Shown here: positions 3,704-49,089 of the stretch, piece after piece
Position numbering within the stretch: the stretch's first letter is position 1
Layout: the number at the start of each line of letters is the position of its first letter
Origin: Halobaculum sp. MBLA0143
Lineage (GTDB): Archaea; Halobacteriota; Halobacteria; Halobacteriales; Haloferacaceae
NCBI RefSeq assembly: GCF_041361465.1
Contig: NZ_JBGKAC010000001.1
Coordinates: 1,116,001-1,180,000, forward strand
Direction of reading: 5' to 3'
Length of the DNA: 64,000 nt
Position numbers and translations under genes: made by a program
The notes under the pieces: generated by a model
Database searches by the model: none
The model's input: only the letters and a program-made list of their open reading frames with translations
What the model was told of the DNA's origin: nothing

Positions 3704-4903
3704 ATGACCCGCGTCACCGAACTCTCCGTCCGCGATTTCAAGGCCGTCGACGAGGCCGAAGTTCACCCCGGTGGTGTCAACCTGATCGTCGGACGGAACA
3801 ACGTGGGGAAGACTTCGCTGTTGGAGGCGTTGCACCTGGCGCTGGATCCGAGTTCGATCTCGCGGTTCGACGGGAATTTGGATAAGGTCGTGCGGGAGGG
3901 GGCCGAGGAAGCGACAGTTAATATAGAAGTCGGTGGTGATGTGGAAGTAGCGAATAGACCAGTAACTGTTGAACGCTACGACGAAGACGCGGCCTTTGAC
4001 CTGTTCAGGAGAGATCTTGAGGCAGAAGTTCGCAAGGTTCTAGACGAAATTAGCGATTATACTGCAGAGACTGCATCCATAGACAAACAAGAAGCAATAA
4101 AAAGTGCAAAAAACAGAAAACAATACAAAAGATTAAACAGACTTCTGTCTATCGTAAATGGGGATACATACCATTCCACTGAGTATATCAAGCTTATTAA
4201 AGAAACAGCAGTGAACAGAGACATCTTGGAAAGAACACTAAATAATGAGGAAAGCCTAAGCAACCCTATCGGGGTTAGCGGAGATTATATATACAACCTC
4301 GAAGGTACAAGATTTGAATTTGGCTGGTCAGAATCAGAAGAGTTGATGTCCACTCGTTTTGTGGTAAGCCCGGGAATTACAAACGACACCCCCGATCCGA
4401 ACACAGACGGTGCCGCTATCCGCCGCAGCCGAATCGAGGACTTCCTGATCGACAACGACATCGTCGACGGCTTGGTGGACTTCTCGTTCGGCAGACTCGT
4501 CTTCGAGGAGGGCGACGAGCGCGAGGAGGTCCCCTACGACTTCATGGGCTCGGGATTCAAGACGCTCGTCGGCATTCTCTGGGAACTGTACGACCAGGAC
4601 GCGGACACCGAAGTGATGCTGATCGAGGAGCCGGCGGTCCACATGCACCCCGGCTACGTGAACGAGTTCACACAGCAGTTGCTCCAGGTGGCCCGCCAGG
4701 AGGACGTGCAGTTGTTCCTCACGACCCACCGCGAGGACCTGATCGAGTCGTTCTTCGCCCCGCCGACAGAGCGAGAACACGGCGATTTCCTCCGCGAGGA
4801 GTTCCGGGTAATCCAGATGACGGATCTGCTGGCGAAGGAACTCGACTACGAGCAGGCCGAAGCGGAGTTAGAGGAGCTGAACACGGACTTACGGGGGATC
4901 TGA
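3704..4903 (+). CDS. OLD/PARIS-like AAA ATPase, candidate defence ATPase
   Basis: A 399-residue ABC/SMC-clade ATPase of the AAA_15/AAA_21 type found in OLD, Gabija and PARIS defence proteins. It has Walker A GRNNVGKTS at residues 30-38, an acidic Walker B VMLIEEP near 304-310, and the H-loop FLTTHRED near 338-345. The central part (about residues 65-225) is variable, Lys- and Asn-rich, and encoded by AT-rich DNA, whereas both ends have normal haloarchaeal GC. The gene has no Toprim domain of its own. A Toprim protein begins on the base after its stop codon, as in two-gene systems where an ATPase sensor controls a Toprim nuclease effector. Defence is inferred from this architecture. Confidence 0.85.
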   Translation: MTRVTELSVRDFKAVDEAEVHPGGVNLIVGRNNVGKTSLLEALHLALDPSSISRFDGNLDKVVREGAEEATVNIEVGGDVEVANRPVTVERYDEDAAFDLFRRDLEAEVRKVLDEISDYTAETASIDKQEAIKSAKNRKQYKRLNRLLSIVNGDTYHSTEYIKLIKETAVNRDILERTLNNEESLSNPIGVSGDYIYNLEGTRFEFGWSESEELMSTRFVVSPGITNDTPDPNTDGAAIRRSRIEDFLIDNDIVDGLVDFSFGRLVFEEGDEREEVPYDFMGSGFKTLVGILWELYDQDADTEVMLIEEPAVHMHPGYVNEFTQQLLQVARQEDVQLFLTTHREDLIESFFAPPTEREHGDFLREEFRVIQMTDLLAKELDYEQAEAELEELNTDLRGI

Positions 4904-5479
4904 ATGTCGTCGGTCGTCGTCATGACGGAGGGTCGTCACGACGTGGAGTTCCTGCGGGTGCTCCACCGTCGCGTGACGGACCGACGCGACTACGACACGT
5001 TCCTGGCAGACGAGACGGACGACACCCAGGAGAAGCGCATCCGGCAACACCGCGTCGACGACGCGACCCGGTGGCTGTACAAGGCCGAAGGCGGTCGGTC
5101 GCGGGTGCTGAAGAAGTTCCGCTCGAACGCGCTGCGGCTGGCGGCGGTCGAGCTCGTCCTCCTGGTCGACCTCGACGGCGAGGCGTACGGGACGTTCGAG
5201 GAACAGTTCAACGACACGCTCGACGAGCACTACGACGGCAAACTCCGGGTGACGAGCCGTGGCCGACGCGCGACCGACCACCTCCAAGCCCACGACTGTG
5301 GAGTGATCGTCGGCGGGACCGAGGAGTACCGGTTCGACCTGCTCGCCTTCCACGACGACCTAGAGACCGTCACCGGGGTCGAACGCGGTGAGGATCGGTC
5401 CACGTACCGCGAGAAGCTGGCACAGTACGTCGCCGACAACGAGGTAGTCCGAGAGACAGTCCGCGAGACAGTACTCTGA
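4904..5479 (+). CDS. Toprim-like effector paired with the ATPase
   Basis: A 191-residue protein whose ATG directly follows the TGA of the ATPase gene, so the two are co-translated. The N-terminus VVVMTEGRHDVEF has the Toprim Glu (Glu9) in an EGxxD context, and VELVLLVDLDG supplies the DxD pair (Asp89 and Asp91). These are the metal-binding residues of OLD-type and DUF4435-type Toprim nucleases. A later GGTEEYRFDLLAF segment may complete the fold. It is shorter than PARIS AriB or full OLD C-terminal regions. It could also be a DUF3226/DUF4276-like Toprim protein. Nuclease action, and control by the ATPase, are inferences from the motifs and the pairing. Confidence 0.78.
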   Translation: MSSVVVMTEGRHDVEFLRVLHRRVTDRRDYDTFLADETDDTQEKRIRQHRVDDATRWLYKAEGGRSRVLKKFRSNALRLAAVELVLLVDLDGEAYGTFEEQFNDTLDEHYDGKLRVTSRGRRATDHLQAHDCGVIVGGTEEYRFDLLAFHDDLETVTGVERGEDRSTYREKLAQYVADNEVVRETVRETVL

Positions 5480-12203: not shown

Positions 12204-13259
12204 ATGAGTGAACGGACTGCGAGCGAGGACCGTAGTGAGGGTGATCTCCGCAACACCGGACTGTCGCTGAAACACGACCGCGAGTGGGACTACGAGCTCG
12301 AACGGATCGTCGAGGAACTGGAAGAACGCGACGCAGACACCGTCGGACTCCAGTTCCCGGAGGGACTGAAGCGACGCGGCCCGGCCGTCGCCGACGACCT
12401 CCGTCAGCTCACCGACGACGCGACGTTCCTGTTGTCCGGGCAGCCGTGTTACGGCGCGTGTGACTTGGACACCTACCTGATGCGTCGGACGGACCTGTTC
12501 GTCCACTTCGGCCACTCCCCGATGAAGGAGTCCGACAAGATCCTCTACGTCCCGTTGTTCTCCAACGTCGACCCGTTCGGGATCATGGAGGAGTCGCTCG
12601 AGGAGCTGACCGACCCGGACGACGATCCGGACGTGGGGCTCGTCACCACCGCCCAGCACATGAACCTGTTCGACGACATGTTCGACTGGCTGGCCGAGCG
12701 GGGCTACGAGGTCCACACCCGCCGCGGCGACGACCGACTCACCCACGAGGGCCAGGTGCTGGGGTGTAACTACGCCTCCGCCCAGGTGGACGCCGACCAG
12801 ATCCTCTACGTCGGCGGCGGGAAGTTCCACCCCCTCGGCCTGGCGATGGAGCACCCGGACAAGACGGTCGTCATCGCAGACCCCGTCAACAACGTCGTCG
12901 AGGTGGCCGACACGGAGAAGTTCATGAAGCAACGCTACGCCTCCGTCCACAAGGCGATGGACGCCGACAAGTGGGGCGTCATCTTCTGTACCAAGATCGG
13001 GCAGGGCCGCTGGGAGCAGGCCCAGGAGATCGTCGAAGCCAACGACGACGCCTACCTCATCACGATGGACGAGGTGACGCCCGACCGCCTCCGCAACTTC
13101 GACATGGACGCGTTCGTCAACACCGGCTGCCCCCGGATCACCACCGACGACGGCCCGCAGTTCCACAAGCCGATGCTCACGCCCGGCGAGTACGAGATCG
13201 CCGTCGGCAACAAGCCGTTGGACGAGTTGGAGTTCGACACGTTCCACGGGACGTGGTGA
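12204..13259 (+). CDS. dph2: Diphthamide biosynthesis enzyme Dph2
   Basis: A 351-residue archaeal Dph2, the non-canonical radical SAM enzyme that transfers the 3-amino-3-carboxypropyl group of SAM to the target histidine of elongation factor aEF2, the first step of diphthamide synthesis. The three cysteines that hold the [4Fe-4S] cluster are visible, one per domain: Cys82 or Cys86 in GQPCYGACDLD, Cys188 in VLGCNYASA and Cys309 in NTGCPRI. The ATG at 12204 follows a TTAA-type box about 30 nt upstream. The open frame extends much further upstream, through the antiporter gene, but that part is a shadow. Confidence 0.95.
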   Translation: MSERTASEDRSEGDLRNTGLSLKHDREWDYELERIVEELEERDADTVGLQFPEGLKRRGPAVADDLRQLTDDATFLLSGQPCYGACDLDTYLMRRTDLFVHFGHSPMKESDKILYVPLFSNVDPFGIMEESLEELTDPDDDPDVGLVTTAQHMNLFDDMFDWLAERGYEVHTRRGDDRLTHEGQVLGCNYASAQVDADQILYVGGGKFHPLGLAMEHPDKTVVIADPVNNVVEVADTEKFMKQRYASVHKAMDADKWGVIFCTKIGQGRWEQAQEIVEANDDAYLITMDEVTPDRLRNFDMDAFVNTGCPRITTDDGPQFHKPMLTPGEYEIAVGNKPLDELEFDTFHGTW

Positions 13260-13284
13260 TCTTCAGGCTGGCGTAGACCCGAGG

Positions 13285-14895
13285 TCACGGGCGGAACGGT
13301 TCCGTGTCCGTGACGGGTAACACTAAGTTTTCTACTTCCCGTCTCGCGTACAGAATCGCACCGTACCCCGCAGTCGCGGCGACGGACACACCGATCACGG
13401 TGTTGAGGAGGATCGCTCCCGTCGTGTCGACGGAGACGACGGAGAGGACCGGGAGACAGACGAGGAGTTGACAGACGCTGTAGACCACGAGGACGGTCGT
13501 TGCCGGGGCAGTCGGTCCCCCGCCGACGACAGGCCCCTCGCTCTGGTCTCTCGCAACGACACCGAACAGGATCGAGAGGGCGGGAGAGGCGACAGCGTAG
13601 AGACAACCGAGTGCGACGACCGCGACGGTCTCGACGGGCGAGACGCCAACGGCGGCGGCGAGACCACCCGTCGTCACGACGGCCACGGGCACCATCGGAA
13701 GGGCGACCGCGAACAGCTTCGCCCTGACGTACTCTGTGGCCGTCAGAGGTGAGGTGAGGACCCAGGGAAGCGCCACTCCCTCCCTGTCGACGACGTTGAT
13801 GTTTACCGCACTCCCGGCGGCCAGTCCGACGGAGATCGCACCGAGGGCGTGGGCGACCCCGAATCCAGATACTGTCGGGTCGATCAGCAACAACAGTGGT
13901 GTGACCAGCGGTGGAACGGCGTAGACGAGCGTGACTGGACTCCGCGCGGCCGTCCGCCAAGTGCTGCGGAGGAGTGCGCCGACACGACGAGAGAACAGTC
14001 GTTCGAGCGGGACTCTATCGGGGAGTGGCTCCCCGTCGGATTCGTCCGTCTCCTCGGGGTCGTCCTCGGAGGCGACCGTGTCACCGAGCCAGATCCGGTC
14101 GGCCACGCTGGCGGACCCGACGAGACTGACCGCCGTCGCCGTCAGCAACGCAGCCCCACCGAGTAGCGCCTCACCGAGTGGCGCGTCGAACGGTGGCACC
14201 AGAGCTAGCCCTGCGACACCGACGAACCGGACTGGGGTGGCGACCAACCCCTCCACTATGGGATTCCAGCTGATTATAAAGAATCCGAGCAGAGCTACGG
14301 TGACGAACCCGAAGATGGTCTCCTGTTCGGCCTCCAGATCGGCCGCCTGGACCGACGACAACCCTACAAGTCCCAAGGAGTATCCCAGTGCGACGCCCAG
14401 CGGGATCACACAGAGAGAAATCAACAGCAGCGACACCGACGGCAGGAGCGCACGAGAGCCGTAGTAGAACGCACCCGCGCCGGCGACCACCGGAGGCCCG
14501 AACACGAACAGCTTCGAGCTGACGTTTCTGAGTGTGAGCCTAGCGAGATACTCGGAGACAGTGAGGCGAACGATCAGCCCCCTGTCGCCGTTGGACAGTT
14601 CCGCTTCACCCTTCACAGTGTCGAACACGGTCGCAACCACAACGACCAGCAGGCCACCGACCAGTGTCTTGACGACCGCTGTCGCTACCGCCGCGTGGTC
14701 GCCTGCCAGAAACTGTTCACCGAAATAGAGTGCTCCCTGTCCGTTGGGCTGGATGATCCGGAACGCGACGTACCCCCACAGTACGAAGGCGATCGGTACT
14801 GTCAGTAGTTCGAACTCACGGCGGCGACGGCGAGCGTCGAAACGGATCACCGTGAGAACACGCCGGACCGAGTCGCCAGACACTCCCGGTGTCAC
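13285..14895 (-). CDS. ABC-2 type transporter permease
   Basis: A 536-residue polytopic membrane protein with about 12 predicted segments. It begins with a cytosolic helix containing RFDARRRRREFELLTVP, as haloarchaeal exporter permeases often do, and is split by a long acidic cytosolic loop (ASEDDPEETDESDGEPLPD) around residue 285. Its GTG overlaps the TGA of the ATPase gene by four bases (GTGA), so the two make one exporter of the ABC-2 class. Two pseudo-symmetric halves suggest a fused dimer. The substrate is unknown; lipids, peptides or antimicrobials are all possible. Confidence 0.88.
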   Translation of the reverse strand: MTPGVSGDSVRRVLTVIRFDARRRRREFELLTVPIAFVLWGYVAFRIIQPNGQGALYFGEQFLAGDHAAVATAVVKTLVGGLLVVVVATVFDTVKGEAELSNGDRGLIVRLTVSEYLARLTLRNVSSKLFVFGPPVVAGAGAFYYGSRALLPSVSLLLISLCVIPLGVALGYSLGLVGLSSVQAADLEAEQETIFGFVTVALLGFFIISWNPIVEGLVATPVRFVGVAGLALVPPFDAPLGEALLGGAALLTATAVSLVGSASVADRIWLGDTVASEDDPEETDESDGEPLPDRVPLERLFSRRVGALLRSTWRTAARSPVTLVYAVPPLVTPLLLLIDPTVSGFGVAHALGAISVGLAAGSAVNINVVDREGVALPWVLTSPLTATEYVRAKLFAVALPMVPVAVVTTGGLAAAVGVSPVETVAVVALGCLYAVASPALSILFGVVARDQSEGPVVGGGPTAPATTVLVVYSVCQLLVCLPVLSVVSVDTTGAILLNTVIGVSVAATAGYGAILYARREVENLVLPVTDTEPFRP

Positions 14896-16762: not shown

Positions 16763-17623
16763 GTGACAGACACGGACGCAGACGCCGCGGCGGCGGGAAC
16801 GTACGAGTTGGCAGATGGACTGACGGTCAACCGGATGGGCTACGGCGCGATGCGGCTGTGTGCCGAGGGGATCGTCGGCGCGCCGGACGACGAGGACCAC
16901 GCCCGGACGGTCGCGCGGCGGGCGCTGGACCACGGCGTCGACTTCGTCGACACCGCAGACTCCTACGGCCCCGGGGTGTCCGAGCGCCTCCTCCGGGAGG
17001 CGGACGTGCCGGACGACGCCGTCGTCGCCACGAAGGCCGGCCTGCTGCGCAACACGGAGACGGAGTGGCTCGCACACGGCGACCCGGACTACCTGAAGAA
17101 CCAGGCGCTGGTGTCTCGAGACCGGCTGGGCGTCGACAGCATCGACGTGCTCCAGCTCCACCGTCCGGACCCGGACACGCCGTTCGAGGACAGCGTGACC
17201 GCGCTCGCCGAACTCGTCGACGAGGGGGTCGTCGACCACGTCGGGCTGTCGAACGTCACCGTCGAACAGCTCGACCGCGCCCGCGAGGTCGTCGACGTGG
17301 TGTGTGTCCAGAACCGCTACAACGTCGGCTACCGGGACGAACAGCCCGTACTGGACGCCTGTGAGGCCGCCGACGTGGGGTTCCTGCCGTGGTACCCGAT
17401 CGCCGCCGGCGACCTGGACGACGTGGGCGACGACTTGGACGCGGTCGCCGACGCACACGACGCCACCCGCTACCAGATCGCACTGGCGTGGCTGCTGGCT
17501 ACCTCGCCGGTGACGCTGCCGATTCCGGGCACGTCCGACCTGGACCACCTCGCGGACAACGTCGCCGCCGCTGGAATCGAGTTGACCGACGAGGAGGTTC
17601 GGCGGCTGGACGAGGCGGTCTAG
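16763..17623 (+). CDS. Aldo/keto reductase
   Basis: A 286-residue TIM-barrel NAD(P)H-dependent oxidoreductase. The catalytic tetrad is visible: Asp63 and Tyr68 in FVDTADSYGP, Lys91 in ATKAG, and His133 in LQLHRPD. The C-terminal cofactor-binding part has IPGTSDLDHLADN. The family would predict reduction of aldehydes or ketones, but the physiological substrate is unknown. The GTG at 16763 is the most likely start because the 54 residues upstream in frame are Arg-rich and unlike the family. It converges on the AT-rich gene ending at 17642, with only 18 nt between stops. Confidence 0.92.
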   Translation: MTDTDADAAAAGTYELADGLTVNRMGYGAMRLCAEGIVGAPDDEDHARTVARRALDHGVDFVDTADSYGPGVSERLLREADVPDDAVVATKAGLLRNTETEWLAHGDPDYLKNQALVSRDRLGVDSIDVLQLHRPDPDTPFEDSVTALAELVDEGVVDHVGLSNVTVEQLDRAREVVDVVCVQNRYNVGYRDEQPVLDACEAADVGFLPWYPIAAGDLDDVGDDLDAVADAHDATRYQIALAWLLATSPVTLPIPGTSDLDHLADNVAAAGIELTDEEVRRLDEAV

Positions 17624-17641
17624 GTTGAGATAATAAAAGAG

Positions 17642-18598
17642 TTATATTTTCTTGATATTTTCTTCACTGACCTGCCCAGGCAGGACGTTCCATAGAACGC
17701 CTATCTGGTCGTCATATTCTTCACTTATTGAGATGTGGTACAGACCAAGTGTGACGCCTGTTATAAAAGAGTACATTAATGACATCTGTCTGTGAATGTA
17801 AGAAATTATACTATCTATAGGCCTCACAATATCACTGTTACCTACCCCCAGATTAATATTTTCTTCATCGAGTTCGAAGGCGTCTTCAAACACAAGCCTA
17901 TAATCAGCATGAGAGAAACTATTTCGGATGTCAGATGCATTCGGATGCTCGTCAAACTCTCCACTATCTAAGGCTTCGTCAAAGCTCTCACCCAACCCGT
18001 TCCTCTCTGCATAGCTTTGATGCTGGCTTATTATAATCAGTCCTTTCGTCACCAACTCAATTCCTGCGTTCAACTCTCCATTATCTGCCGTATTGTGAGC
18101 TTGTTCTGATATTTGAATACAAGTGTTCAGCATTTCATGAAATCTTCGGATATCCCCATCACTATCGTATAACCTGGAGTGCCAATTCCCCTCTGACCCG
18201 CGATACTCATCAAGCAGATGTATTAGCGTTGCTATATGGTATTTCATCGGACCTTCGAGTTCTTGTGCATATATAGGTGCAAAAATATGGGCTCCTGCCC
18301 TCTTCGTGGCATAAGGCACTTGTCTCCCGTCCAGATTCCAACTCATCCAGTTATTGAATAACGAGTGATAAATTCGTGACCGGTCATAGAACGTTGCAAT
18401 TGATCCAGTTAATTCACGAGACTCAAATAAGTTGTTCGAGTCTTGGTCAAGTTCTCTACTTAGGTACAGCGGTACTAAAGCCGAGTGAACGTGTAGATCT
18501 CTTTCAAAGTCGTCTTTATAGTCGATATTGAATATTGGCTGCAGTGGACCCTTGTCCAGCATCGGTTCAACAAACTCGTAGTCTTCTGGCTCCACCAT
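17642..18598 (-). CDS. Orphan AT-rich gene with HEPN-like Rx4H motif
   Basis: A 318-residue protein, predicted mostly helical, encoded by DNA much richer in A and T than its neighbours and with codon usage to match, which points to recent acquisition. Near residues 224-232 it reads IRNSFSHAD, where Arg225 and His230 make the Rx4-6H motif of HEPN RNases and toxins; the surrounding IRNxxxHA context is common in that superfamily. The preceding helix (VTKGLIIISQHQSY) fits the HEPN fold. It resembles DUF5677-like or abortive-infection HEPN proteins only loosely. The ATG at 18598 has a TATA box 25-31 nt upstream. No antitoxin or partner gene is adjacent. Function is inferred. Confidence 0.75.
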   Translation of the reverse strand: MVEPEDYEFVEPMLDKGPLQPIFNIDYKDDFERDLHVHSALVPLYLSRELDQDSNNLFESRELTGSIATFYDRSRIYHSLFNNWMSWNLDGRQVPYATKRAGAHIFAPIYAQELEGPMKYHIATLIHLLDEYRGSEGNWHSRLYDSDGDIRRFHEMLNTCIQISEQAHNTADNGELNAGIELVTKGLIIISQHQSYAERNGLGESFDEALDSGEFDEHPNASDIRNSFSHADYRLVFEDAFELDEENINLGVGNSDIVRPIDSIISYIHRQMSLMYSFITGVTLGLYHISISEEYDDQIGVLWNVLPGQVSEENIKKI

Positions 18599-18622: not shown

Positions 18623-18629
18623 TGATAAA
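18623..18629 (-). promoter_or_regulatory. TATA box of the HEPN-like gene
   Basis: Reading the minus strand, TTTATCA lies 25-31 nt before the ATG at 18598, giving a leaderless transcript. It supports the ATG over a GTG four codons further upstream. Confidence 0.6.
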
Positions 18630-47250: not shown

Positions 47251-49089
47251 ATGGGTTACCAGACCACAACAATAGACAGTATTATAGATGATGTGAATTA
47301 CACTTACCTCGTTCCTGCGATTCAGAGAGAGTTCGTCTGGGATTCAGACCAGATTCTCGACCTATTCGACTCCGTCGTCAGAGGCTATCCAATCGGGTCT
47401 TTTCTCTTCTGGAGGGTCAGCGGTGAGTTCTCGAAGAGCAGAATAAAGTACAAATTTATAAAAAACTATATTGGGGATCCGATTCACCCCGACGAACTGG
47501 ACAACGTTACGTACCACAACAACAGGCATCGGGACAGCCTAGAAGACAATCCAAACAAAATTAATCTGGTCTTAGACGGGCAGCAGCGGCTCACATCATT
47601 CTACATCGGTCTCAAGGGATCGTACACGGAGAAGATACTGAACAAGAGAAGGAGGAAGAAGGACTCCTGGGAGCGAAAGTACCTGTACCTGAATATTGCG
47701 TCCCCGACTGACGAGGAGGTGAGCGGTAGGAAGTTTGACTTCCGATTCAAGAAGCCAGACCCGGATCACGGCTGTGACGAATACTGGTACAGAGTAGGTG
47801 ATATCCTAGATGTTGACGACTTCGCAGAGGAAGCCGACAAAATTATGGAGAACATCGAGTTGATAGACGGAATAAATGCGGAACGTGTCCACAGAAGCAT
47901 CAGTAAAAATATACAGAGGCTCAACCACGCGATCTGCCAGCGTGAGTCGATATCGTACTTTGAGGAGGATGAGGAGAACCAGGAGAAGATTCTCGACATC
48001 TTCATCCGCGCGAACGACGGGGGGACCCAGCTCAGTAAATCGGATATGTTGTTGTCAGTTGCTACTGCCCAGTGGAGCGACCGGGGCGTAGACAACAAAG
48101 TAGTTGCTAGAGAAGAAATAAAGCAGTTTGTCGACAAGCTGAACAGCCACGCGGCGAGAGGGACGGTCGAACTTGACTCTAACTTCGTTCTCCGCGCACT
48201 GTTGACCGCGTCGGATGTTCCTAACCTCTCGTTTACTCTCGCCAACTTCGACGAGGAGACACTAAGGGAAATGAAAGAGACGTGGATGGACGGAGAGTTC
48301 AAGCAGGCGGTGATGAGCACACTGGACCTACTCCAGAGCTACGGGCTCTCGACCACACACATAAGGAGCAAGATGGTCATCCTCCCGATAGTCTACTACT
48401 TCTACCATAATTCAAATCCACACCTCTCGTTCAACGGTAACTCTGGCCGCTCCGAGAGGCAGAAGATCCTCTACTGGATGTGCTCTCTAGTCGCCAACGG
48501 TGACCTGAACACCGGCGGAACGATCCAGACTATTCGCGGTATAAGAAACATCATCAGAGAGTCTGCCGACCGAGAGTTCCCGTTGTCTCGAATAGAGGAG
48601 AAGCTAAACGACTACAACAAGTCGATGGGATTCGACAGAAGTACGCTCGAAAGGTGGTTTAGTGACGGGACTCTGAGCAACAGCTCACAGAGAGTTGTCC
48701 TGTCTCTCGCGTACTTCCCCGATATAGCGAGTGAGAGCTACGAGTACGAACTCGATCACATATTCCCGAAGTCCGAGCTACAACGGGATACGTTGGTGGA
48801 CGAGTACAATATGTCGATTGAGAAGGCTGAGAGGCTGGACGACCTTCGGTCGAGCACGGGGAACTTACAGCTCATTCGTGCCGGTGAGAACCGGTCGAAG
48901 TCGGACAGTCAGCTCACAGAGTGGCTGAGTACACGGCGAGAAGACTACTTGGACCGCCACTACGTTCCGACCGATGAAGATCTCTGGAGAGTAGAGAACG
49001 CTCTGGACTTTATAAACGAGAGAGAAGAGAGGTTGATGCAAGAATTGCTCGATAAATCACCAGACAGAGCCACTAAGCAACCCACCTGA
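47251..49089 (+). CDS. DUF262-DUF1524 protein, GmrSD/SspE-like restriction nuclease
   Basis: A 612-residue two-domain protein. The N-terminal DUF262 domain has AIQREFVWDSDQILDLFDS and the diagnostic NLVLDGQQRLTSFYIG with Asp109, Gln111, Gln112 and Arg113. In GmrSD and SspE this ParB-like fold hydrolyses nucleotides when it meets modified DNA. The C-terminal DUF1524 domain shows the HNH-type ELDHIFPKSEL (Asp502 and His503) and, near residue 537, TGNLQLIRAGENRSKSD, where the Asn completes the motif. The gene is richer in A and T than its neighbours. It has no cognate DNA-modification genes nearby, so it could act against modified phage DNA as a type IV enzyme. Confidence 0.9.
   Translation: MGYQTTTIDSIIDDVNYTYLVPAIQREFVWDSDQILDLFDSVVRGYPIGSFLFWRVSGEFSKSRIKYKFIKNYIGDPIHPDELDNVTYHNNRHRDSLEDNPNKINLVLDGQQRLTSFYIGLKGSYTEKILNKRRRKKDSWERKYLYLNIASPTDEEVSGRKFDFRFKKPDPDHGCDEYWYRVGDILDVDDFAEEADKIMENIELIDGINAERVHRSISKNIQRLNHAICQRESISYFEEDEENQEKILDIFIRANDGGTQLSKSDMLLSVATAQWSDRGVDNKVVAREEIKQFVDKLNSHAARGTVELDSNFVLRALLTASDVPNLSFTLANFDEETLREMKETWMDGEFKQAVMSTLDLLQSYGLSTTHIRSKMVILPIVYYFYHNSNPHLSFNGNSGRSERQKILYWMCSLVANGDLNTGGTIQTIRGIRNIIRESADREFPLSRIEEKLNDYNKSMGFDRSTLERWFSDGTLSNSSQRVVLSLAYFPDIASESYEYELDHIFPKSELQRDTLVDEYNMSIEKAERLDDLRSSTGNLQLIRAGENRSKSDSQLTEWLSTRREDYLDRHYVPTDEDLWRVENALDFINEREERLMQELLDKSPDRATKQPT

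Follow-up and report, generated by a model that had tools for sequence, protein, structure and literature searches.

A solitary, recently acquired HEPN-like gene in a haloarchaeal chromosome and its probable tie to BREX-related (BR/Hma) defence loci

The stretch of DNA analysed here (the window, 64,000 nucleotides) belongs to a haloarchaeal chromosome and covers positions 1116001-1180000 of contig C1 of Halobaculum sp. MBLA0143. Positions 17642-18598 on the minus strand hold an intact open reading frame for a HEPN-like protein of 318 amino acids (P0001), which begins with ATG, ends with TAA and contains no frameshift or internal stop. A full-length homologue, 45% identical, is encoded in Halorientalis litorea, and the start codon of the window gene matches the first residue of this homologue in the alignment. 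The first-pass annotation had described the gene as compositionally foreign, solitary and equipped with its own promoter; the foreign composition and the solitary position held, and a putative promoter was seen. Its GC content is 0.424 versus 0.665 across the window. It is flanked on one side by an aldo/keto reductase gene on the plus strand, ending at 17623. On the other side, a small conserved gene and, beyond it, SpoVR, DUF444 and PrkA genes lie on the minus strand. A TATA-like TTTATC, read by eye at 18624-18629 (minus strand), stands 26-31 bases upstream of the ATG as the putative TATA box of a leaderless haloarchaeal transcript.

The gene fills an AT-rich single-gene islet, with approximate limits at 17624 and 18716, that reaches from the aldo/keto reductase gene to the small gene and was delimited by comparison with another genome of the same genus (G001). 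In that genome both flanking genes are present 149 bp apart and the HEPN-like gene is absent, and the window genome therefore carries an insertion of approximately 1.1 kb with one gene in it. The gene was likewise missing from every other genome among the 170 of the family. We concluded that it is a recent acquisition, gained alone as an AT-rich islet. A search for repeats at the insertion ends gave short matches of chance size only, and no tRNA gene that might mark an insertion site lies within the window. The islet contains no second gene, including any MNT nucleotidyltransferase antitoxin gene beside the HEPN-like gene.

Searches of roughly 680 archaeal genomes and of plasmid, phage, and viral collections returned a single homologue, located on the Halorientalis litorea plasmid NZ_CP095484.1 and 44-45% identical to the window protein over 98% of its length. 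Weak matches of the protein and of a two-row profile in approximately 35 further haloarchaeal genomes were rejected on inspection; a run of them over residues 39-167 represented a histidine kinase family, and those near the motif described below were unrelated proteins. Nothing was found when genome and viral contigs were scanned for sequence patterns. The window protein had no match in Pfam or NCBIfam even at E = 10, and searches of PHROGs and of PDB sequences yielded nothing useful. The family is very rare, unnamed, HEPN-like and outside the profile libraries searched; it is new within a known kind, the HEPN effectors of defence loci.

The basis for calling the protein HEPN-like had been the string IRNSFSHAD, with Arg225 and His230, which is present as described. 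HEPN active sites are expected to show a conserved Rx4-6H, usually with a polar residue after the arginine, and R225-N-x3-H230 has this form in both homologues. The motif, RNSFSHA in the window protein (codons 225-231; 17906-17926, minus strand) and RNAIAHA in the Halorientalis protein, has R225, N226, H230, and A231 invariant, and Arg225 and His230, whose loss among homologues had been named as grounds for refutation, are thus both kept, with Asn226, in the only homologue. An Rx4H by itself proves nothing, because 52% of shuffled copies of the protein contain one (89% for Rx4-6H). The more specific RNxxxH appeared in 4.5% of shuffles of the single protein and was conserved in both homologues in only 0.4% of column shuffles, in a comparison of one pair of sequences; unlike the bare Rx4H, the conserved RNxxxH is informative as a candidate active site. 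Another Rx4H, RSRIYH (codons 73-78; 18365-18382, minus strand), is also invariant in the alignment and belongs to the N-terminal half. Tandem HEPN domains, which this second motif suggested, were rejected since internal similarity was absent. The longest invariant block, FAPIYAQELEGP (codons 106-117; 18248-18283, minus strand), also belongs to the N-terminal half, where it falls within the 20-residue stretch of highest conservation (75%), and it is possibly part of a sensor or partner-binding region.

Against PADLOC, the window protein matched Cas13c weakly in its C-terminal part (E 0.010 and 0.017), and the Halorientalis homologue matched Cas13a (E 0.0065) and Csx1/Csm6 (E 0.007), also weakly; these were the only matches of the two proteins, and all are to HEPN RNases and fall around the RNxxxH motif. 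AlphaFold models built without an alignment were all-helical and poor, with a pLDDT of 35 for the full protein and 54.5 when only the C-terminal part was modelled. Compared with solved structures in VIA-align, the C-terminal model had HEPN/HepT toxins as its best natural matches, at Z 8.0-8.8 and within the helical-bundle background (7ae8, Z 8.8; 6m6u, Z 8.6; 7ae6, Z 8.4). Because Z values of 8-9 are often reached by chance among helical bundles, we regard these toxin structures as support for a HEPN fold and not as proof of it; Foldseek alone gave nothing better than E 0.14. The HEPN_Swt1 profile (PF18731) matched neither the window protein nor its homologue, nor anything else in the window organism's own genome, and comparing profiles with candidate Swt1-type HEPN proteins of two haloarchaea found nothing. 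Two other haloarchaeal proteins with RNQLFH and RNRLFH motifs (L119 and L120) had sub-threshold matches to HEPN_Swt1 (E 8e-5 and 3e-4) and, as judged by eye, possibly combine a CBS domain with a HEPN domain.

The first-pass assignment to HEPN is probably right on account of the retained motif, the HEPN-only PADLOC matches and the toxin structures, but the Rx4H on which it had leaned was uninformative. Together, the conserved RNxxxH, the weak profile matches and the low-confidence model make it likely, but do not prove, that the window protein is a HEPN protein. It resembles the HepT of HEPN/MNT (HepT/MntA) systems in its predicted helical bundle, its Rx4H, and the best natural structural matches of its low-confidence model, but its gene has no adjacent MNT antitoxin gene, it is twice the length, and its sequence is not detectably related. 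Similarly, the weak profile matches around RNxxxH recall Csx1/Csm6 and Cas13, but these reach E values of only 0.0065-0.017, no CARF domain was found in the window protein, and the gene has no CRISPR-linked neighbour in the window. That a HEPN protein without an antitoxin is unusual, as had been proposed, was not borne out, given that HEPN proteins encoded on their own occur commonly in defence (PMC3710099, PMC12839542).

The genomic setting of the Halorientalis homologue was more telling. Its start codon overlaps the stop codon of a gene for a DUF1156 methyltransferase (TAATG), and next come the genes for a DUF499 ATPase and a second DUF1156 protein, also a methyltransferase. Farther along, the plasmid carries a third DUF1156 gene, McrBC-like genes, the gene of an SNF2 helicase, and additional defence genes. 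The core proteins of the locus match HmaB and HmaC of PADLOC, and the locus is BREX-related (BR/Hma). Loci centred on DUF499 are known as BREX-related (BR) systems, earlier called Hma, whose proposed suicide effectors are HEPN domains, in many cases as part of the DUF499 protein itself (PMC3710099, PMC12839542). The likeness to them lies in the encoding of the Halorientalis homologue together with a DUF1156 N6-methyltransferase and a DUF499 ATPase. Known HEPN domains of BR/Hma systems are mostly of the Swt1/Abi2 type and fused to the N-terminus of DUF499, whereas the window and Halorientalis proteins are separate, 314-318 amino acids long, possess an N-terminal half of their own and have no HEPN_Swt1 match, and the window copy is solitary.

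Comparison with a near-identical locus in another genome (G047) revealed a cassette exchange. The two loci are 92.7% identical on the left (4.6 kb) and 95.7% identical on the right (11.6 kb), but the middle segment, which in Halorientalis contains a TBP gene, the first DUF1156 gene (DUF1156a) and the HEPN gene, is replaced in G047 by a segment with a DUF1156a that is approximately 70% similar and no HEPN gene. Since this segment is swapped while its surroundings are nearly identical, the HEPN gene must have been gained or lost along with the methyltransferase gene. Both have a GC content of 0.46 in Halorientalis, compared to 0.61 for DUF499. In the BR loci of other genomes no distant HEPN relative was found in the slot between DUF1156a and DUF499, which was empty in four of them (G024, G428, G128, and G356), held two antisense open reading frames in another (G177 C2, at approximately 13008-14280 of locus L112), or held unrelated open reading frames. 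The link of the HEPN gene with the operon consequently comes from one locus, because the other operons of the clade are without HEPN and the slot holds various unrelated genes. BR loci thus have in this slot a site whose cargo varies.

The window gene does not share a locus with a DUF499 ATPase, a DUF1156 methyltransferase, and an SNF2 helicase as its Halorientalis homologue does. A matching BR/Hma locus without a HEPN gene is nevertheless present on the organism's own second replicon, C2 (a contig of 589 kb). Its DUF1156 methyltransferases are 65%, 66%, and 52% identical to the Halorientalis proteins (65% for DUF1156a and 52% for DUF1156b), its DUF499 59%, its SNF2 helicase 63%, and its McrB/McrC-like pair 59% and 40%. 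The C2 slot between DUF1156a and DUF499 is occupied by an unrelated 219-aa open reading frame and holds no degraded HEPN gene. Among 392 genomes of the order, 11 have a DUF499 at least 59% identical, the two HEPN carriers included; leaving out the cis case of Halorientalis reduces this to one genome, for which the chance is about 10/391, in a comparison chosen afterwards, and the co-occurrence of DUF499 and HEPN in the window organism's own genome is suggestive only. The BR/Hma-like locus (C2 374001-394000) has three DUF1156 methyltransferases and embedded McrBC-like genes, with a gene for an Mrr-type nuclease nearby, and a second, distant pair of DUF499 and DUF1156 genes lies at C2 536001-556000, approximately 30% identical to the first.

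Taken together, these data suggest that the window gene probably encodes an abortive-infection HEPN RNase of the BR/Hma type, which the window organism acquired solo. The protein would be all-helical and in two parts, an N-terminal half (about residues 1-145) that probably serves in sensing or docking and a C-terminal half (about residues 146-300) that would form the HEPN domain and, as a dimer, cut RNA by means of Arg225 and His230. It would be the kind of abortive-infection effector that is attached to restriction-modification loci of the BR (Hma) type. Where the genes are arranged as in Halorientalis, the protein would be translated together with the DUF1156 N6-methyltransferase, beside the DUF499 ATPase. 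It would stay silent until the restriction complex detects a virus or fails to stop it, after which the cutting of RNA would shut the cell down. The solo copy may act alone, relying on its N-terminal half, or it may act with the C2 locus in trans.

The protein could instead be a free-standing HEPN abortive-infection protein that detects a viral product with its N-terminal half and cleaves RNA with its HEPN domain; the Halorientalis copy would then merely have landed in the cargo site of a BR locus. We give this reading a serious, if somewhat less than even, chance. The solitary position of the window gene, the variability of the DUF1156a-DUF499 site, including the 219-aa frame on C2, and the good conservation of the N-terminal half around FAPIYAQELEGP agree with it, but the overlap of stop and start with the methyltransferase gene and the joint replacement of methyltransferase and HEPN point to functional coupling. 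In another reading, the solo chromosomal gene serves the BR/Hma locus of the second replicon as its effector, acting in trans. The C2 locus has DUF1156a, DUF499, DUF1156b, the McrB/McrC-like pair, and SNF2 and has no HEPN gene, and the distribution of DUF499 places both HEPN carriers among the 11 genomes, but this is a post hoc comparison resting on a single genome, the nine other carriers of the clade have no HEPN gene, and we consider the reading possible but unlikely. A further version, a split system in which the C2 locus has the chromosomal HEPN RNase as its abortive-infection arm and restrains it in trans, leaving the host dependent on the replicon, seems distinctly doubtful.

Two further explanations dispense with an active HEPN effector. 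The protein might be some other all-helical protein in which RNxxxH is coincidental, as the missing Pfam and NCBIfam matches and the low confidence of the models would allow; the second invariant Rx4H (R73-H78) indicates that the conservation of such a motif can have other causes. We judge this rather unlikely, however, as a conserved RNxxxH is rare by chance, the weak profile matches are all to HEPN proteins, the best natural structure matches are HEPN toxins, and the homologue sits in a defence operon. Finally, the gene might be the decaying, non-functional remnant of a transferred defence operon, and its isolation from the operon and narrow distribution are what such a remnant would show. 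The full-length reading frame without frameshift or stop and the conservation of the candidate active-site residues speak against decay, and make this explanation highly improbable.

If functional, a split arrangement of this kind would be new. The same protein occurs once within the operon and once solo in a cell with the operon elsewhere, a situation that offers a natural test of the coupling between HEPN proteins and BREX-related systems. Should the solo copy be tolerated only in the presence of the replicon, control of an abortive-infection RNase in trans would be shown, together with a route by which defence replicons could persist.

Other candidate defence genes were seen in the window. 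An AT-rich islet at 47251-49089 (plus strand) carries the gene for a 612-aa GmrSD-type type IV restriction enzyme (GmrSD_N + GmrSD_C), which is absent in G001 and has a 64% identical copy in a second genome of the genus (G003). A lower-GC stretch contains at 3704-5479 (plus strand) the gene of an OLD/AbiEii-like AAA ATPase (AAA_15/AAA_21), with a 191-aa partner gene on its 3' side, and the two possibly form a further defence pair.
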